Below, piece by piece: positions 16,228 to 60,821 of a stretch of 64,000 nt of DNA. The DNA is from a virus. Each line of letters begins with the position of its first letter. Within the stretch, counting starts at the first letter, position 1. Position numbers and translations under genes: made by a program. Location of the stretch: positions 1 through 64,000 of the IMG/VR virus record IMGVR_UViG_3300035670_000147; one strand, 5' to 3'. The notes below the pieces were generated by a model. It was given only the letters and a program-made list of their open reading frames with translations, did not search any database and had not been told where the DNA came from.

Positions 16228-16299
16228 TGCCCGGTAGCACAATGGTAGTGCACGGCACTGTTAATGCTGGGGTTGTAAGTTCGAGTCTTACCCGGGCAG
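16228..16299 (+). tRNA. tRNA-Asn (anticodon GTT)
   Basis: The 72-nt sequence folds as a complete cloverleaf. The acceptor stem TGCCCGG/CCGGGCA has seven perfect pairs. The D stem is GCAC/GTGC with loop AATGGTA. The anticodon stem is CGGCA/TGCTG with loop CTGTTAA, giving anticodon GTT. The variable loop is five bases. The T stem is GTAAG/CTTAC with loop TTCGAGT. The discriminator is G, normal for Asn. CCA is not encoded. It is the only tRNA found in the window. Confidence 0.93.
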
Positions 16300-51238: not shown

Positions 51239-51415
51239 CAATTCGCGAATAGCGAACGTGTTACGGAACGTAGGTCGAAATTTTTTTTGACCGAGGTTTT
51301 GTAACACCTAAATATCCGGCAAAAACGCGGCATATTTGGTAGTGCACGTTTTTTATTGCCGGTCGAACGCGCATTCTCCGGCAATTTCCTTCCACTGCGC
51401 GGTGGAGAATACCAA

Positions 51416-51949
51416 ATGAAGAGCGTGAGTTTAGCCACTCAGGACGTTTTGGCTCAGTTTCGCAAAAAGGCGGCTGATTTGCCGTACGAGTCCCACCCTT
51501 ACGCGAACGCCGCACGCGGTCGCGACAATCTCGGTCTTTCCGAGTGGACCGAGGAGCACCGCCACGACGCCACGATGGCGATGGCTATGTGGGTGACCAT
51601 GATCGTCGGCCAGTCGATTGCGTCGACGCTGAACGAAATGGTGGCGCTCATGAAAATCGCCTGCGAAACGGGCGACGAAGAGCATAAGAAGGCCGCCGAC
51701 GAACTCGCGGGGTCTATGACGTTTGTTGAGAACGTTTTTAAGACTTTTATGTGCTCTATCGATTTTGAGCACGTCGCTGAGCAATTGTTTGCGGACGGCG
51801 AAAAGATGGAGAAAGAGCGTCGCGAAGAATTCGCGGCGGCGGAGGCGGCGAAGGCAAAGGTTGCGAAGTCAAATATCGACAACCCAACCCCGAGCCCGGC
51901 GCCCCTGAGCGGCACCGTTCACCGGCGCTGGGAGCCGAGCCAGAACTAA
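51416..51949 (+). CDS. Helical protein at the start of the MoxR-VWA island
   Basis: The protein has 177 residues. ATG 51416 follows GGTGGAG; a longer start at 51356 is less likely. It is mostly helical (ATMAMAMWVTMIVGQSIAST, EEHKKAADELAGSMTFVEN), with a charged Glu/Ala/Lys-rich stretch at 130-155 and a Pro/Ser tail. No family is recognised. It has its own terminator 23 bp later, so it is a separate transcript from the AAA+ gene, although the island grouping suggests a link. Confidence 0.55.
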   Translation: MKSVSLATQDVLAQFRKKAADLPYESHPYANAARGRDNLGLSEWTEEHRHDATMAMAMWVTMIVGQSIASTLNEMVALMKIACETGDEEHKKAADELAGSMTFVENVFKTFMCSIDFEHVAEQLFADGEKMEKERREEFAAAEAAKAKVAKSNIDNPTPSPAPLSGTVHRRWEPSQN

Positions 51950-51971
51950 CGCAACAGCGTTAGCGGCCGAG

Positions 51972-52018
51972 AAAGAGCCACCCCAGAATGCAGTCTCTGG
52001 GGTGGCTCTTTTATTTTT
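51972..52018 (+). terminator. Rho-independent terminator
   Basis: AGAGCCACCCCAGA and TCTGGGGTGGCTCT form a 14-bp perfect stem with an 8-nt loop, followed by TTTATTTTT. A second small hairpin, CTAACGC/GCGTTAG, lies over the stop codon just upstream. Confidence 0.93.
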
Positions 52019-52036: not shown

Positions 52037-52867
52037 ATGTCCGCTTCCGTTGAAACGCTGCTGCCCGGCTATCACGCGCGGCGGCGTGAAAGTTTGGCCG
52101 CCAAGTTGTTGGCGCTCGTCACCGACACGGTTCGTGCCGCACTCCTTGTCGGGGCTCCCGGTACCGGAAAGACTTTCTTTGCCGAGTGCTTTGCGCGCGG
52201 CAGGAAGGCTAAACACTACTTCATTCCGTGCCATCCTTGGTTGACCAACGAAGAGGTTAATCAGGGCGTGGATATCGGCAAGGTGGCGGTCGGCGTCGCG
52301 CACGCAGATGAGGCGTATCTTGACGGCCAGTTGCTGCGCGCGGTCAAAGCAACGGCACATCACGACGTCGTCATCACGCTCGACGAGGTGGAGAAGGCCG
52401 GCAGTCGGTTCTACCCGCTTATTCTGGACTTTCTCCAGCACGGGCGGGTGCCAGACGCGCGACACCACATGCACCAAGCCGACCTGAAACGACTCTTTAT
52501 CGTGCTTACCGCGAACGAAGAGACGGACTTGCCCGAAGCCGTGAAGCGTCGATGTTTTCGCGTGATCATGGAATTCCTTCCTGAGCACATCGAGGTCGAC
52601 GTCTTACGGAAATCGACCGGCGCGCCGGGAGGGGCTTGTCGGCTGGCGGTGCGCATGGCGAACGCCATTCGCACCCGCGGCGAATCCAAGCCGAGCCTTC
52701 AGGAGTTGCGTGAACTTCTGCGGTCTCGTGTTTTGGTGGAATCCGCGGCGGACACAGACGCGCTGATTGACGGGTTTCTCGTAAAGGACCCGAAGGACCG
52801 CGCCGCAATCGAACGTGAAATTCGTTCGCCCGGCGCAGTCTTGTTCGGCGAGTTCGGGAGGAAGTAG
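52037..52867 (+). CDS. MoxR-type AAA+ ATPase
   Basis: The protein has 276 residues with CAGGAGC before ATG 52037. Walker A is GAPGTGKT with Lys45. Walker B is ITLDEVEKA with Asp116 and Glu117. Sensor 1 is VLTANEET, and the Arg-Arg in VKRRCFRV gives the Arg finger/sensor position. The C-terminal lid is short. The MoxR family works with VWA-domain proteins as chaperone-like remodelling machines, and a VWA gene follows after 70 bp. Stand-alone MoxR-VWA pairs are rare in phages between head and tail genes. The target is unknown. Confidence 0.82.
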   Translation: MSASVETLLPGYHARRRESLAAKLLALVTDTVRAALLVGAPGTGKTFFAECFARGRKAKHYFIPCHPWLTNEEVNQGVDIGKVAVGVAHADEAYLDGQLLRAVKATAHHDVVITLDEVEKAGSRFYPLILDFLQHGRVPDARHHMHQADLKRLFIVLTANEETDLPEAVKRRCFRVIMEFLPEHIEVDVLRKSTGAPGGACRLAVRMANAIRTRGESKPSLQELRELLRSRVLVESAADTDALIDGFLVKDPKDRAAIEREIRSPGAVLFGEFGRK

Positions 52868-52937: not shown

Positions 52938-54389
52938 ATGGCTATAACACTTCGTGAAATGCAGAAGTTTTTGAGCCTGTCGCGGCGCGACGGGGTGGTG
53001 GATTCTGCGCTATACCCGTGGCGCAAAACCGTAGCGCGATTTGCCAATTTCGTGGCGGGGCATAAGCGCTTTCGTAGAGTAGTACTTGACCGCGGATTAA
53101 TTGTAAACACGTGCACTTGCAACGAATGCGTGTTTGCCGGGCGGACAACCAACCCGCAGTCGCTTGTCGACTCGTTAACGCGACGCTACGGTCCTTATGC
53201 CGATCTTGATGACGTTTTGAACGATCTGGAGCGAGCGGCCGCCGAAAAGCAGCCGCAGCAACCCCAGCAAAACGAGCAAAGTCAGCACGAGCAGCCGGCG
53301 CAGGAGCAGGAGCCGCAAAACCAGCAATCGCAGGGCGGTCAGGGTTCGGACAGCGATCAGGACGGCGATCCCGACCCCGACGGGGCGGGAGAACCTGACG
53401 CGCAGTCTCAGCCCCAGCCGGGACAATCTCGCGCGCAGCCAACCGGTTCTGCGCCTGAGTCGTCTCAGCAGCCGCACCCGCAGCAGGTGTTGCAGCAGAT
53501 GAAAGAGGCTTTTCGCGAGGCAGTTCGGACGGCGCAACGGCAGCCCAACTGCCCCGTTGCCGCGAATAACCTCCGGCAGGCAAAGAAGTTGTTGCGAGAA
53601 ACTCGTAAGCGGGTATCGGTTAAACCGAGACCTGTGCGCGAGGGTCCTTCGCTCTCCGCTCGGAAACACCTGACAACTTCCCACGGGAGGTTGCGGCGTG
53701 TGCCGCAAAATTTGCGGAGTCAGATGGCCGAACTGATTAATCGGCTAGTCTTACAGGCCGGGACATCAGGTTCCCAACTGGGTCCTATTCCTGTATTGAG
53801 CCCGCGTAAACTTGTAAATAGGATGCTTGTCCAGCGTCCGTTACAAAACGCACTCAAGGAAGACAGCGTCAGCGGACGTCCGGTTACGCTGTTTCTTCCA
53901 GACATTTCGCCGAGTTGCGAGGCGCAGGCTCAGATCGCCTGCGACCTTGCAAACGCGGCAGGGTACGCCGGAATCTCAGGTTCCGACGTGTTGGTTTTTC
54001 CGCACTGCAACGGCGAAGTGTCCGCGCACGAGGACTACTTTCCGTGGCTTAACGGGAAGCCAGTTACCGACGCCGTCCGCGAGATTCCCAAACTCTACGA
54101 GGACGTTTGCACCGGTCACAGTCGTTTTAAGGTTCGTGTTGTCGTCTTACTAGGCGACCACGACGCGGTTCATCATTACGAGAAAATCGCGGCACTCAAG
54201 ACGGTGCTCCGAGTCGTCTGGCTGCATAACTACCGGTCCTCGTCGGACCGGCGTGACGCGGCGCTGGAGGAATCCAGTTCTTTCCTCGCCCCGGGCTGGT
54301 CTACCGAGGTGATGGAAAAGTTGTCGTTGGTGTCTGGCTGCACCACGACGACAACAATGCTTCGCGGCTTTGGTTTGGCCGTGAAGTAA
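52938..54389 (+). CDS. VWA-domain protein, partner of the MoxR ATPase
   Basis: The protein has 483 residues with a canonical AAAGGAGGT before ATG 52938. Residues 1-95 form an N-terminal domain with a Cys pair (C-T-C-N-E-C). Residues 95-185 are Gln/Pro/Glu-rich and disordered. The VWA-like domain starts near residue 315: TLFLPDISPSCEAQ has the MIDAS motif D-x-S-x-S (Asp322, Ser324, Ser326). Later strands (VVVLLGDHD) continue the fold. The gene order MoxR then VWA matches cellular AAA+/VWA pairs. No transmembrane helix is present. The nearest cell-based comparison would be RavA-ViaA or CbbQ-CbbO types, by architecture only. Confidence 0.78.
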   Translation: MAITLREMQKFLSLSRRDGVVDSALYPWRKTVARFANFVAGHKRFRRVVLDRGLIVNTCTCNECVFAGRTTNPQSLVDSLTRRYGPYADLDDVLNDLERAAAEKQPQQPQQNEQSQHEQPAQEQEPQNQQSQGGQGSDSDQDGDPDPDGAGEPDAQSQPQPGQSRAQPTGSAPESSQQPHPQQVLQQMKEAFREAVRTAQRQPNCPVAANNLRQAKKLLRETRKRVSVKPRPVREGPSLSARKHLTTSHGRLRRVPQNLRSQMAELINRLVLQAGTSGSQLGPIPVLSPRKLVNRMLVQRPLQNALKEDSVSGRPVTLFLPDISPSCEAQAQIACDLANAAGYAGISGSDVLVFPHCNGEVSAHEDYFPWLNGKPVTDAVREIPKLYEDVCTGHSRFKVRVVVLLGDHDAVHHYEKIAALKTVLRVVWLHNYRSSSDRRDAALEESSSFLAPGWSTEVMEKLSLVSGCTTTTTMLRGFGLAVK

Positions 54390-54427
54390 ACGCAGCAACC
54401 GCAGCGCAGAAGGGAGGTAATAAGGTG

Positions 54428-54986
54428 TTTACGTAAATACGGCCCGCGGAGTTAACAACTCGCGCGGGCAATCTATTTTGCGCATTTTAGTTCGTTGGCG
54501 CAGAGTAGACGTAGGACGAAACTAACGAGCACAGGCGAGCGAAAAGTCGCCCGGGGACAAAAGTCGCGACCTCGTCGGTTGCGATACTTTTCGGGGTGGT
54601 TGGTCCTGCACCCATAGAGATACCAGAGAGATAGCCGGGACGTCGCGCAAGCGAAACGCCGGCGACTCGTCTCTGTAAGGCACAGTACCCCGGATTTGTA
54701 GTGGGGCGCGCAAAATGGATAGGCAGGCGCGTTTTATGTAAAATCCGGAGCGCCTGCGGGCGCTTATACGCCACGTCTGAAGGGCCTAGTCCCCGCAGAC
54801 ATGTTTCCTCGTTGTACCTTTCGGCCGCGATAATAATAACTAACGCGCGCCGGTTGTTGCCGCCATGGCCGGTGAACAACGAGCCAGTTAACGCGCGAGC
54901 CCGCGTAAGCGGGTCGTTAACGGGGGACGCCGGGTGGGAGAGTTGCTAGCCTCTCCCACCCGGCGCACATCGCACTTCTTTTTTTT
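54428..54986 (+). ncRNA. Large structured non-coding RNA candidate with its own terminator
   Basis: The 627-bp gap has no convincing gene but is packed with helices: GCCCGCG+GAGTT/AACTC+CGCGGGC (54442-54469), TTAGT+TCGT/ACGA+ACTAA (54487-54525), GAAAAGT+CGC/GCG+ACTTTTC (54541-54592), CAGAGA+GTCGC/GCGAC+TCTCTG (54624-54675), CCGGATTT/AAATCCGG (54690-54748), AGCGCC/GGCGCT (54749-54764), GTCTG/CAGAC (54775-54800), CTCGTTGT/ACAACGAG (54808-54883), GTTAACG+CCCGC/GCGGG+CGTTAAC (54887-54921), and a terminator hairpin. At least ten helices in order over about 560 nt are far more than expected by chance. The 5' end is uncertain, near the TTTACGTAAA palindrome at 54428. It could be an ornate large RNA of GOLLD/ROOL type or a new class. 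Confidence 0.65.
54928..54986 (+). terminator. Terminator ending the structured RNA region
   Basis: CGCCGGGTGGGAGAG and CTCTCCCACCCGGCG form a 15-bp perfect stem with an 8-nt loop. A run of eight T follows 13 bp later, so the U tract is offset; it may act as terminator or as a stable 3' end. Confidence 0.75.
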
Positions 54987-55004
54987 AGATATCAGACGCC
55001 GGGG

Positions 55005-55010
55005 TATAAT
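55005..55010 (+). promoter_or_regulatory. Consensus -10 box next to the start of the next gene
   Basis: TATAAT is only 6 bp before ATG 55017, with no ribosome binding site between. Transcription would start at about 55016-55017, giving a leaderless mRNA. No clear -35 is seen, so a chance match is possible. Confidence 0.35.
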
Positions 55011-55016
55011 TACGCT

Positions 55017-56306
55017 ATGAGCCAACCACGCATTTTTCCGTTCCGCCGCGTATCTGTCGACCACATGACCCGCGGCGTTTCGCGTGTCTGGTGGCAATTA
55101 GACCGCCTTTTTCGCGACGAGGGTCCGTACTCTTTTCAATTGCAGTACGGCCGCACGGGCGTCCGCGACGCCGCTGACTGGACAAATATCGGGGCGCCCG
55201 TCGTTAATTCATACTTCGCGCTCGACCCAGAGTGGCGCGAAAGCGGCTACGATATAACCTCGCATTATCGTGTCGTTTTAACTACTCCGAACGGTCGCTA
55301 TGTTTCTCAGGCAGCCAGTTGCTTTGGCGAGTTAACCGAAAAAGACTGGTTACTTGCCCGAGAGATTATTCGCAAGGAGCAGTTGCGCAACCGGCTCGTA
55401 TCAATTCCCGGTTATTTGATTAAGCCACTGCGGTACGGTACACCCTGCAAACGGTGCCGCGACCAGTTAACTGACGAAATCTCAGACGCTGATTGCCCGC
55501 TCTGTAGCGGCACCGGTTTCGAGACTGGATACCATACCCCCGTCCCGCTGCAGTGTTGGGATTTGTCGCCGCAAGTTATTCAAGAACAAATCGATAATAA
55601 CATCAAAGGCAATACGCGAGAAAACCCATACGTTAATGCACGCGTAATCGGCTTCCCGGCGTTAAACAAGTACGATATCTGGGCCAACGGCTCGTCCGAC
55701 GAGCGCTGGATGATCGATACAATACAGGTAACAGCCGCCTTGCGGGGCGTGCCGATTATCTATCAAGTGCGCATGGGATTATTACCGTTTAGTAACGCCG
55801 TATACGCAATCGAGATTGGCGGAGAACCAGCCGCTCGCCGCGGGCCCACCCTGCCGATAGAAGGTTGCGGCGACGTTATTGTAGACCACGATTACACGGG
55901 TATTGATGCTTTAATTTATACAACGGCTGCCGGCTGCCCTGTAGAAGGTGCTGATGTTTACTTGTTTACAAAAGAGTCCTTTGACGCGCACGGATTAAAT
56001 ATTGACCGAAGTTTGGCGGCTGGTAAAACAAAAACACGGGTTAACGGGCGCTGGTTACAGTCGCTAAAACTCGACGCGGGCGATTATGTTATCTTGTACG
56101 AGAAGGTCGGCGAGTACGGACCGGACACGCAAGAAATAACCGTCGCGCCTCCCGAGGCCCCGCTGCCAATGTCATATCCGCCGGTTATGGGTTCTCACGA
56201 ACCGCCGCCGGCGCACCAATTACCGGTCGGACGGAAAATACGTACTGTTGTGCCCGGCCGCCCGTCGCCGCCCGATCAGACCGAAAAAGGTTTCTGGGAT
56301 ATATGA
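55017..56306 (+). CDS. Neck/tail protein with zinc ribbon
   Basis: The protein has 429 residues. Residues 1-110 form a beta domain (VSRVWWQLDRLFRDEGPYSFQLQYG), as in fibronectin-like parts of phage proteins. C-K-R-C and C-P-L-C at about residues 144-165 form a zinc ribbon. The middle carries an Asn/Arg-rich region (GNTRENPYVNARVIGFP), and the C-terminal 100 residues are Pro-rich. Proteins with this ribbon and size are found before the sheath in myoviruses. The exact role is not settled. Its stop overlaps the next gene by 4 bp. Confidence 0.6.
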   Translation: MSQPRIFPFRRVSVDHMTRGVSRVWWQLDRLFRDEGPYSFQLQYGRTGVRDAADWTNIGAPVVNSYFALDPEWRESGYDITSHYRVVLTTPNGRYVSQAASCFGELTEKDWLLAREIIRKEQLRNRLVSIPGYLIKPLRYGTPCKRCRDQLTDEISDADCPLCSGTGFETGYHTPVPLQCWDLSPQVIQEQIDNNIKGNTRENPYVNARVIGFPALNKYDIWANGSSDERWMIDTIQVTAALRGVPIIYQVRMGLLPFSNAVYAIEIGGEPAARRGPTLPIEGCGDVIVDHDYTGIDALIYTTAAGCPVEGADVYLFTKESFDAHGLNIDRSLAAGKTKTRVNGRWLQSLKLDAGDYVILYEKVGEYGPDTQEITVAPPEAPLPMSYPPVMGSHEPPPAHQLPVGRKIRTVVPGRPSPPDQTEKGFWDI

Positions 56307-57263: not shown

Positions 57264-60200
57264 ATGTCGAGTTATATCAAGCCACAAGTATTAGTCTTCC
57301 AAGAGTTCCGGATCGTCCCGACGGAGATCACGGAACCGCTGCGCGCCCACATCGCCGGCCCGCACGCCATCCTTCACCGCTACAGCGATCTTGACGAGAA
57401 GAAGACCATTCTTCTTGGGCAATATGATCGGCTGAACGACATTTGCTATCTGTGGCCGTCGCGTCGGCCCGGTTCGATCGTCGACCTGCCGTACACGAAG
57501 GTGTATATGGACGACGCGCTGCTGAAGTATTTCGACCACGTACTTCAGAGCACGTACACCACGATCACCGCGGTAGACGGCAAGTTCAACTGGATTCAAT
57601 CGGACGATCTTTCGTTTAAGTCCAACACGTCGGCTTATCCGCGCAGCAGCGACTTCCTCGACCGCGACGTGGCGGTTGGCGACGTCGCTTACCTGCGCAC
57701 GGTGTATGACCGCGACGACGAGTGCCGCGAAATCGAACTGTGGACTGAAGTTGTTGGCTTTGCTAGCGACCTCGTCGACTCTTTGATCAAGCCCGCCGAA
57801 AACGACGAAGACAATCAGCCCAACACGCTGGCTTACTGCGGTATCCCGAACCCGGCCGTGGGCGACGATGGGCAGCCCGATGCTGACAACAACTATTTGC
57901 AAGTTGCCGGCAAAGAAAACTGCGTCAAACTCGTCGAACTTGACGGCGCTGCTTACAACGGCCTCGCCAGCGGCGATGTCGAAGAAGAGTACACTATTCA
58001 AGTTATTAAGAGCACCGTGTCGGGGTGCAACGCCGCGCGTCTGCGCGTGCGCAGCGCCAGCGGCCGCGACGATCAAGAAGAAGTTGTGCCGAACGACATG
58101 GGCCAGTGGACCGAAATCGGCACCCGCGGCTTGAAGGTCAAGTTTAACGTGCTTGACACCGAAGCCTGCATCGACGCCTCGGTGGCGAACGACGTTGTTT
58201 ATGATAACTTTGTCACCGGCCAGAAGTGGGTCGTGGCCGTGGCGCAAGAGTTTTACGCCGCAGACGCCGACTCGGCTGCTGACGGGCAGTTCACGGTGCA
58301 GTTGGACGGCGACATTGCCGGCGCTTACAACGGCGCTAAGAACGACGTTTACATTGTTGAGGTCACGAAGGGCGGCGCGTTGGACGCCGTGGTCGCCGAT
58401 ACGCTCGGCTTCCCGGAAATCACCGTACGCACCGTCAAAGGTCTCGACATGTCGGGCCCCACGGAGGTTGTGGAAAACGGCGGCGAAATCGGCATCGGTA
58501 CCAATGGCGTAAAGGTCATCCTGTCCGTCCCCGGTCCGGTGTCCGCGCTTGAGTTGCAAAACGGCGGCAGCACGTACACCACGGCTCCCACCGTGACGAT
58601 CGTCCCGCAGCCCGGCGAGCCGGGACAGGGCGCGACGGCTACGTGCACTATTAATGACGACGGCGTCGTCGACAGCATCACCCTGACAAACGCGGGCAGC
58701 GGTTACTTGAATCCGCCGCAAGTCGTGTTTACTGGCGGCGGCGGGACGGGCGCTTCGGCGCAGGCCTCGCTGAACGTCGGACTCCGGAAGGGTGACAAGT
58801 TCTACGTCGCGGTCGTTTCCAGCAAGGCTGGTCCGGTGCGCAAACTCATCCTTCGCGACGACCTGCCCAGCGAAATGCGCGACACCTACGTGCGCGCTTC
58901 GACTGTTAAGCAGTCGGTCAAGGTGGTTGCCGACGCGAACATCACGTTGGAAGGCCTGCAGACAATCGACGAAGTCGAACTGGAAGCCGGAGAACGCGTG
59001 CTCGTAGTCGACCAAGATGACGCGACCGAAAACGGGGTTTACGTTGTTAGCGCCGAGGCGTGGACTCGCGCCACCGATTTCGACGAAACATCCGAAATCT
59101 CGAAAAACGTTTACGTTCCGGTACTGTCCGGCGACACTTATGCCGGTTCGGGCTGGGTCGTGACGAACAGCGGCACGGTCGCCGTTGGTGAATCTGTTAT
59201 TAACTTTGTGCGCGACGACGAGGCGAACACAGATCGCCCCGTGCCGCTCGACCTGAAGTTGTTCATTAAGGACGACATCCAGATTTCGCGCGTCCGTCCG
59301 GAGACTTATGCTCTGACGAACTACTGGTTCGAAGACACGCAAATCTGCATTCAGGAAGGCATCACTGCCTATCATCCTGACTGGACGGCGACGGGCGTCG
59401 AGCAGCCGCTTCCCGTTGAAGCGGGCAAGGTGTACGTCGAGTACCGCGAATGGCTGGCCGAGTTCGCTGACGAAGTAAATTCGATCAGCGACGTCGCCGA
59501 TCTTGACGATCTTGCCGGGCAACTTCACCCGGATAACCCGCTGAAGTGGGGCGTGTACAAGGCGCTCTCCAACAGCAACGGTACGGTTGTGAAGTACACC
59601 GCGGTTGCCCACCCTGAAGAGTTCGATGAGACCGGGAAAATCCTCGGCCCCGACCTCGACAGTTGGGTACAGGTGCTTGAGCGCATCAAGGGTCGCGACG
59701 ATATGTACAACCTCGTACCGATGACGTTTGACCGCAGGGTGCAAAACCTGTGGGCTGCGCACATCGGCGCCGAGTCGAACGAGATCGCCAACAACTGGAA
59801 GGCCGGCTTCTTCTCCCTTAAGGCCGAGCCGAAGCAACTGGTTGTCGGCGAGGGCGCCCTTATCAAGGGCGTGCTTGGCGAAGTTATGGAGCCGATGCTT
59901 GCTACGCTGAAGGACGACCCGAACGCTACGGGCCAGCAGTACACGTTGCTGCAGGTTCCGCAGGGTACGACTTTCGCTAAGGGCTACTTCATCACCAATG
60001 AGGTGCAGCCGGGCGACATCGTGCGCTACAACTTCTCGGTCGACCAATACGGCGAGGAGCAGTACGAAGAGTATGTTGTCGATCAGGTTCTGTCGGAAAA
60101 CTCGCTGCGGCTGTTCACCGGCGCTGACGCGCCCGTGACGCAGGAACAGCGGTTTGAAATCTGGCACAACCGGAACCGCAACGAGATCGCGGAGGACATT

Positions 60201-60821
60201 GCGCAGCAAGCCGGTTCGCTTTCGAACCGCCGTATCTGCGCCGTGTGGCCCGATCAGGTAGGCGAGGCTGGCACGAGCCAGCCCGGCTACTACCTCGCCG
60301 CTGCGCTCGCTGGTCTCGTCTCCGGCGTGGTGCCTCACCAGCCGCTGACGAACGTTGAGGTCGCCGGTTTCGACGACTTCACGCGGTCCTACAAGTATTT
60401 CAATGAAACGCAACTGAACCGCATGGCGGAAGCCGGCGTGTGGATCGTCACGGAAGACCGCGACGGCACCCCGCACACCCGGCACGCTCTGACGACGGAC
60501 AACCTCGACCTGAATCGTCGGGAAGAGATGATCCGCCGCAATGTGGACTCGATGTCGTACCTGTTCCTGCGTCGGCTGCGTCCGTTCATCGGCCGCACCA
60601 ACGTGCAGCCCGGCATGTTGCGTCGTCTGAAGTTCGAGGTCGAAACAATCATCAACTTCCTGTCTAACAACGGCAACACGGAAGAACTGGGCTCGCAGTT
60701 AATCTCCGGCGAAATCCGGAAACTGCAAGTGCATCCGCTGCTGAAGGACCGGATTGAGATTGTGCTGGACCTCGTTGTTCCGGCGCCGCTCAACAACATC
60801 GAACTGCACTTGGTCGTCTGA
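57264..60821 (+). CDS. Tail sheath protein (enlarged)
   Basis: The protein has 1185 residues. The C-terminal region has the typical sheath signature: R-R-I-C-A-V-W-P-D-Q, YYLAAALAGLVSGVVPHQPLTN, MAEAGVWIVTEDRDG, and a final R-R-L-K-F-E-V-E-T-I-I-N-F-L segment. The N-terminus (EPLRAHIAGPHAILHRYSD) fits the sheath's conserved opening. About 600 residues in the middle are extra: two V-x-V-E-V-T-K-type repeats (residues 230-430), a G-G-S-T-Y-T-T-A-P-T-V-T-I beta module (about 430-500) and an A-T-E-N-G-V-Y-V-V-S module (580-650). Typical sheaths have 450-700 residues, so this one likely has surface-exposed insertions. Confidence 0.85.
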   Translation: MSSYIKPQVLVFQEFRIVPTEITEPLRAHIAGPHAILHRYSDLDEKKTILLGQYDRLNDICYLWPSRRPGSIVDLPYTKVYMDDALLKYFDHVLQSTYTTITAVDGKFNWIQSDDLSFKSNTSAYPRSSDFLDRDVAVGDVAYLRTVYDRDDECREIELWTEVVGFASDLVDSLIKPAENDEDNQPNTLAYCGIPNPAVGDDGQPDADNNYLQVAGKENCVKLVELDGAAYNGLASGDVEEEYTIQVIKSTVSGCNAARLRVRSASGRDDQEEVVPNDMGQWTEIGTRGLKVKFNVLDTEACIDASVANDVVYDNFVTGQKWVVAVAQEFYAADADSAADGQFTVQLDGDIAGAYNGAKNDVYIVEVTKGGALDAVVADTLGFPEITVRTVKGLDMSGPTEVVENGGEIGIGTNGVKVILSVPGPVSALELQNGGSTYTTAPTVTIVPQPGEPGQGATATCTINDDGVVDSITLTNAGSGYLNPPQVVFTGGGGTGASAQASLNVGLRKGDKFYVAVVSSKAGPVRKLILRDDLPSEMRDTYVRASTVKQSVKVVADANITLEGLQTIDEVELEAGERVLVVDQDDATENGVYVVSAEAWTRATDFDETSEISKNVYVPVLSGDTYAGSGWVVTNSGTVAVGESVINFVRDDEANTDRPVPLDLKLFIKDDIQISRVRPETYALTNYWFEDTQICIQEGITAYHPDWTATGVEQPLPVEAGKVYVEYREWLAEFADEVNSISDVADLDDLAGQLHPDNPLKWGVYKALSNSNGTVVKYTAVAHPEEFDETGKILGPDLDSWVQVLERIKGRDDMYNLVPMTFDRRVQNLWAAHIGAESNEIANNWKAGFFSLKAEPKQLVVGEGALIKGVLGEVMEPMLATLKDDPNATGQQYTLLQVPQGTTFAKGYFITNEVQPGDIVRYNFSVDQYGEEQYEEYVVDQVLSENSLRLFTGADAPVTQEQRFEIWHNRNRNEIAEDIAQQAGSLSNRRICAVWPDQVGEAGTSQPGYYLAAALAGLVSGVVPHQPLTNVEVAGFDDFTRSYKYFNETQLNRMAEAGVWIVTEDRDGTPHTRHALTTDNLDLNRREEMIRRNVDSMSYLFLRRLRPFIGRTNVQPGMLRRLKFEVETIINFLSNNGNTEELGSQLISGEIRKLQVHPLLKDRIEIVLDLVVPAPLNNIELHLVV

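Follow-up and report, generated by a model that had tools for sequence, protein, structure and literature searches.

A predicted, pseudoknotted RNA of ~560 nt conserved at the 3′ end of an AAA–VWA cassette in a family of giant phages

INTRODUCTION

Large RNAs of complex structure are rare; for several, GOLLD and ROOL among them, no function is known as yet. In Ro60/Rsr–Y RNA particles, a VWA-containing protein works together with a structured non-coding RNA; we know of no dedicated structured RNA for the chaperone pairs NorQ–NorD, RavA–ViaA or CobS–CobT. ROOL is ~580 nt in length and its cage is homo-octameric. Formation of RNA-only cages has been described for both GOLLD and ROOL (PMC12286853); GOLLD has also been reported to bind ribosomes in pull-downs, and ROOL is often found near tRNA islands, with no protein partner known (PMC12286853).

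Here, we examine a gap of 627 bp (54390–55016) in the genome of an uncultured giant phage, for which a first-pass annotation had proposed a highly structured non-coding RNA of about 560 nt. The window—the whole stretch of DNA that was analysed, 64,000 nt in length—was taken from a 73-kb IMG/VR record. On the strength of sequence comparison, and with no RNA-seq data to draw upon, we conclude that the gap encodes a real structured non-coding RNA of ~560 nt, of which the shape is kept rather than the exact sequence. Two features go beyond that earlier proposal: the RNA belongs to an AAA–VWA–RNA cassette, and it carries a ribosome-binding site and mini-ORF at its 5′ end.

RESULTS

Position, coding potential and extent

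The coordinates first given for the gap are correct: it lies between the stop codon of a VWA-like gene (54389) and the ATG (55017) of a gene encoding a 429-aa product, here called T1, whose family remains unassigned. The cassette genes, the elements of the RNA and the flanking terminator and promoter box all lie on the + strand. Across homologues of the RNA there is no frame preference—similarity in all six frames being confined to near relatives—nor is there a long conserved reading frame, a 5′ ORF of 3–5 codons excepted; a conserved protein frame, which the first-pass annotation had named as grounds for refuting its own proposal, was thus not found.

That annotation needs two corrections: transcription of the RNA probably stops at ~54986, at a T-run, and 54984–55016 serves instead as promoter for the gene that follows. 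The promoter box itself (TTTAGATATCAG-N7-GGTATAAT, 54984–55010), which is outside the RNA, is the sole such site in the window, where none would be expected. The box before the T1 gene (TTTAGMTATCAG) is common to the whole phage family, and the gene appears to be leaderless: TATAAT is found at 55005–55010, the ATG at 55017, and there is no Shine–Dalgarno site. Further downstream, a 1185-aa sheath-like protein (57264–60821) has inserted domains at 391–650 that match head-decoration and baseplate families.

An AAA–VWA–RNA cassette

Relatives were gathered via the tail-sheath protein and then the T1 and AAA proteins, giving contigs of up to 205 kb from a giant myovirus-like family. A homologous gap RNA of ~530–680 nt follows the VWA gene in eight distinct phages (the window, L003, L005, L006, L007, L010, L015 and L018); these homologues have short motifs in common, their helix sequences being strongly diverged, and other relatives have a short spacer or small ORFs at the equivalent place. 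The interval between u329 and T1 in L011, L020–L030 and others is a variable site; it may be empty, hold assorted small ORFs, or hold the cassette.

A covariance model built on helices P3–P7 recovers the RNA at 63–140 bits in 8 of 30 family records. (A match in G011, at 17.6 bits, falls inside a 215-aa open reading frame and was rejected as chance.) The VWA gene is present in the same eight records and in one contig that ends within it—for which reason the RNA status of this ninth record cannot be tested—and the AAA gene in the same nine, plus two weak partial matches. The other 21 records are without VWA, RNA and full AAA, nine of them being 194–205 kb in length. AAA, VWA and RNA are all retained in each of eight lineages, with VWA identity as low as 39% and partial loss in none. 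On a T1 tree, the distribution of the cassette needs only two changes, so its co-occurrence does not amount to many independent events, and a single origin is not excluded; the link between its elements, as inferred from these records, is one of long co-retention, not repeated co-acquisition.

Neither the RNA motif nor the VWA protein was found to have homologues outside the phage family among genome contigs. A DNA search of phage records returned chance matches only, and a protein search of phage records nothing for VWA, AAA or T1. By tblastn, a 197-aa gene further upstream (51356–51949) was detected in all but one of the eight cassette phages and in none of the other records. Visual inspection, however, suggests a distant similarity to small ORFs that occupy this position elsewhere, and the gene was for that reason left out of the cassette.

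In the order of the cassette the RNA comes last, after a MoxR/NorQ-like AAA+ ATPase (52037–52867) and the VWA-like protein (52938–54389). A strong intrinsic terminator (51971–52012; 17-bp stem plus T run) precedes the AAA gene in the window, and a terminator together with a phage promoter box does so in several relatives (L005, L006, L007, L018 and L086). Combined with the terminator and new promoter that follow the RNA, this layout suggests a single AAA–VWA–RNA transcription unit; expression as a discrete RNA is inferred from the same terminator and promoter layout only. The terminator–promoter junction recurs in the phage family, as a T-run with a TAGMTATC(A/G)G-like box immediately behind it and either TATAAT or TAAATAA next; instances are found upstream of the AAA gene in the five relatives just listed and, in the window, at 54979–55010.

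The ATPase matches Pfam AAA_5 (48 bits) and, over its full length, a profile of the nitric oxide reductase chaperone NorQ (E 5e-7), its best solved relative. The VWA-like protein has an N-terminal domain with a Cys cluster (in most members), a Q-rich linker and a C-terminal VWA-like domain. The motif D-x-S-x-S (D322, S324, S326), as in the MIDAS of VWA domains, and D407 are invariant in eight homologues. No Pfam match was found for the protein, TROVE included, and its predicted model (mean pLDDT 67.5) was too weak for fold matching, the fold search returning nothing significant. VWA_CoxE is matched, though below threshold, by a distant homologue encoded on a Gloeobacter plasmid. We describe the protein as ‘VWA-like’ on the basis of these motifs and that sub-threshold match, rather than any significant domain or fold match.

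This homologue belongs to a pair on plasmid pGMOR1 of Gloeobacter morelensis (NZ_CP063846.1, 4028–6636). Identity to the phage proteins over aligned parts is 44% for the MoxR ATPase and 33% for the VWA-like protein, and the pair has a DNA methyltransferase gene and a type I-D cas3 as neighbours. The 12.5-kb stretch searched contains no match to the RNA, two small ORFs following the protein pair instead, so an AAA–VWA pair of this kind need not be accompanied by a recognisable RNA. Distant AAA loci in another group of viral contigs (L087–L092) encode an AAA domain 31–35% identical to that of the phage, directly followed by a protein of ~380–400 aa, one of which weakly matches VWA_CoxE; no large RNA was found at these loci.

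Covariation, rather than folding energy, supports the structure

A comparison with shuffled sequences had been suggested by the first-pass annotation, and shuffles do fold worse: the gap has a folding energy of −275 kcal/mol, versus −233 kcal/mol (sd 6.7) for shuffled controls (z −6.3). This is, however, weak evidence. Equal-length windows in neighbouring genes of the phage give z-scores of −0.1 to −5.9, the RNA minus its terminal hairpin −4.1 and the reverse complement −6.6. As coding windows also reach −5.9, such z-scores do not discriminate in this genome; folding energy was dropped as proof of structure, and the case for a structured RNA rests on covariation.

In an anchored swap test, pairing of each strand with its own 3′ partner was compared, by permutation, with pairing to the strands of other phages, the windows being fixed by conserved anchors. 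The own partner pairs far better, at 1–43 of 40,320 permutations for six helices (P4 and P13, 1 each; P3, 4; P7, 8; PK2, 28; P6, 43), with P10 at 1 of 720 and P15 at 5 of 5,040. P11 (720 of 5,040) and P12 (1,512 of 40,320) are both too invariant for the test. A by-eye version (n = 2000 permutations) used hand-picked strands, which favours structure, and located a few strings wrongly. The anchored version is the cleaner of the two, with caveats of its own: in L007 and L018, and likewise for the P15 windows, offsets were set by hand, and for P10 the L015 row took the wrong 5′ window. Nor are the permutation counts exact probabilities, because the window phage and L003, as well as L005 and L006, are related and not independent.

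An independent count of the pairs points the same way. For P3, PK2 and P4 together, 91% of cells are paired, against 65% when shuffled, and 15 of 18 pairs have changed on both sides; none of 500 shuffles equals this on any measure. P10–P12 are 98% paired, with both-side changes in six pairs and a covariation score above all 500 shuffles. The compensatory changes that the first-pass annotation proposed to look for in relatives are thus present, covariation extending to nearly every helix as well as to PK2, and its central claim, of a highly structured non-coding RNA of ~560 nt in the gap, is borne out by covariation in eight phages and by the absence of frame preference.

Anatomy of the RNA

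At its 5′ end, the predicted RNA has a near-perfect Shine–Dalgarno sequence (54409–54418; GAAAGGAGG in most relatives), a feature not unique to the RNA, since the VWA gene also has a strong one. A mini-ORF follows (54425–54436), which in the window reads GTG TTT ACG TAA and would encode MFT*, with a GTG start. Its counterparts encode MNFT* (L003), MPFP* (L005, L006, L010 and L015), MTWP* (L018; ATG ACC TGG CCC TGA, the frame having been read by eye) and MHWPR* (L007); the four MPFP* members differ by synonymous changes only. The mini-ORF is probably translated.

The region that comes after this is lineage-specific, and comprises hairpin P1 (54442–54469; by-eye swap 2/2000) and hairpin P2 (54472–54509), which varies among lineages and is drawn from the minimum free-energy fold and comparison with L003. 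In five relatives the P1 loop and sequence further downstream likely pair as a pseudoknot, PK1 (by-eye swap 30/2000), which is absent in the window phage and L003. Hairpin P3 (54534–54551), which comes next, is 100% paired, with four of five pairs changed on both sides. The P3 loop, CGAAAAG (54540–54546), is predicted to pair with CUUUUCG (54587–54593), forming the pseudoknot PK2 (54540–54593); this covaries strongly, four of its five pairs having changed on both sides. Enclosed within PK2 is hairpin P4 (54563–54585), with a 7-nt loop, CUYGUYG, that is conserved in most members and may bear some resemblance to a segment of 23S rRNA. The likeness of this loop (54571–54577 and equivalents) to the 5′ strand of P11, CUCGUUG, is close enough that the P4 loop could instead pair with the P11 3′ strand.

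Hairpin P5 (54594–54613; by-eye swap 15/2000) is found as GGGUG/CACCC, GGGAC/GUCCC or CGGUG/CACCG. P6 (54624–54675) would form an outer stem around P7 (54635–54662), the latter having an invariant internal loop, GACGUC/GAAACGCC, and, in four members, a GNRA cap. P8, with P9 nested inside it (54690–54748; by-eye swaps 42/2000 and 2/2000), has a conserved internal loop of the UGUAG/GUAAA type, and is followed by P10 (54775–54800), where three of five pairs have changed on both sides. P11, the most conserved helix, lies around P12 (54808–54883; loop UCAYGRC); it is mostly invariant, with changes on both sides in L007 and in L018, double changes in the former and a replacement helix in the latter. 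P13 and P14 (54887–54921) lead into P15 (54928–54965), the terminal hairpin, of 15 bp, and then a run of eight T residues (~54979–54986) in the terminator region. Three helices singled out from the sequence by the earlier annotation are all in place: CCGGATTT/AAATCCGG (54690–54697/54741–54748), CTCGTTGT/ACAACGAG (54808–54815/54876–54883), spanning 76 nt, and the 15-bp stem (54928–54942/54951–54965).

DISCUSSION

Our comparison establishes, at the level of sequence, a conserved and pseudoknotted RNA of ~560 nt at the 3′ end of an AAA–VWA cassette, maintained for its structure. What it does has to be inferred. The best explanation we can offer, and one that we put forward tentatively, is a trans-acting RNA that works with the ATPase/VWA machine, possibly on ribosomes. 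The RNA would be transcribed with, or processed from, the AAA–VWA mRNA (we have no transcript data), with P15 and the T-run acting as the terminator that ends it. It may then serve as the RNA part of a machine formed with the MoxR/NorQ-like ATPase and VWA adaptor, either as a scaffold or as a client remodelled by the ATPase, although no data on RNA–protein contact or phenotype are available. Remodelling of other complexes is what MoxR/VWA systems do, which leaves scaffold, guide and client as possible roles for the RNA; our data do not separate these. The strong Shine–Dalgarno sequence and 3–5-codon ORF might load a ribosome at the RNA 5′ end, which would either shield that end from decay or bring the RNA to ribosomes. 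In favour of this explanation are the covariation, the lack of a conserved frame, the co-retention of AAA, VWA and RNA, the layout of terminators and promoters, and the purely synonymous changes among the MPFP* mini-ORFs. Counting against it are the possibility of one origin for the cassette, the Gloeobacter pair with no recognisable RNA, a VWA assignment that rests on motifs, and the strong Shine–Dalgarno site of the VWA gene, which shows such sites not to be peculiar to the RNA. More speculative still is the most specific form of the proposal: AAA+ ATPase, VWA protein and RNA would make up one three-part machine, which would be the first MoxR/VWA remodelling system to have a large RNA of its own, possibly directed to ribosomes by a built-in, ribosome-binding mini-ORF.

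Somewhat unlikely, to our minds, is a function residing in the RNA alone, as for GOLLD and ROOL: the molecule would fold, perhaps self-assemble into a particle, and lie beside AAA–VWA only through a common transcription unit. Its similar size and complexity, its being phage-borne, and the presence of pseudoknots and of conserved loops that would suit tertiary contacts are all in keeping with this, as is the precedent of GOLLD and ROOL as RNA-only cages, with ROOL having no known protein partner (PMC12286853). Set against it are the strict co-retention with AAA–VWA and the lack of any Rfam similarity to GOLLD or ROOL. When the window and seven family loci were scanned against Rfam 15 (4227 families, including GOLLD, ROOL, OLE and HEARO), the RNA was unmatched at gathering thresholds, and relaxed scans of three RNAs (E<10 for the window gap) gave only chance microRNA/sRNA-like matches at E>0.7. 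Matches to mir-1303, mir-H1, RAGATH-31 and similar (E 0.8–4), nearly all on the terminal hairpin and far below gathering, were rejected. The tRNA setting is missing too, the sole tRNA in the window being at 16228, 38 kb from the RNA. As judged by these scans the RNA is neither GOLLD nor ROOL.

Rather less probable is a cis-acting element of the AAA–VWA operon, namely a 3′ untranslated structure, mini-ORF and ribosome site included, by which the upstream mRNA is controlled in its decay, translation or read-through, or a ligand is sensed. The RNA is immediately 3′ of VWA, apparently in the same transcription unit, and a probably translated mini-ORF precedes the structured region, both of which would fit; its size, two pseudoknots and dozen helices nonetheless seem excessive, on general knowledge, for a 3′ UTR element, and cis-regulators of such complexity usually sit before the gene that they control. 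The gene at 55017 does lie directly downstream, and a small ORF and terminator hairpin could be taken to mark a leader/attenuator of this structural gene; we judge this very unlikely, because the terminator and the gene's own strong, family-wide promoter separate it from the RNA, and relatives without the RNA keep the same T1 promoter. That the gap is a GC-rich spacer with chance hairpins and no functional RNA, a reading left open by the non-discriminating z-scores, is refuted by the covariation tests, in which compensatory changes go far beyond shuffles and slid controls.

The suggestion that the RNA may be a new class holds up, there being no Rfam match: by sequence and structure it is a new class, and one accompanied by two candidate protein partners as well as a mini-ORF that is probably translated. 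Its function is therefore directly testable, as regards both the use of an RNA by a MoxR/VWA machine and the bringing of a phage RNA to ribosomes. In the literature, as covered by titles and abstracts and mostly without subscription papers, we found no matching case of a phage RNA partnered with MoxR/VWA or Ro/Y.

Returning to the known systems, GOLLD is likewise large, elaborate and phage-encoded; many of its members, however, exceed 800 nt and often lie near tRNA islands, whereas the RNA described here is tied to an AAA–VWA pair and has a mini-ORF at its start. ROOL is of a similar size class, phage-borne and with multiple pseudoknots, and differs in its tRNA setting and in having no known protein partner; a match to the Rfam model is lacking in both cases. 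Compared with Y RNAs, the phage RNA is several times longer and again without an Rfam match, and no TROVE domain was detected in its candidate partner. On the protein side, the phage pair is very divergent in its VWA-like member when set beside the MoxR AAA+/VWA chaperone pairs, and shares with NorQ–NorD, RavA–ViaA and CobS–CobT the arrangement of a MoxR-type AAA+ gene adjoining a VWA-type gene.
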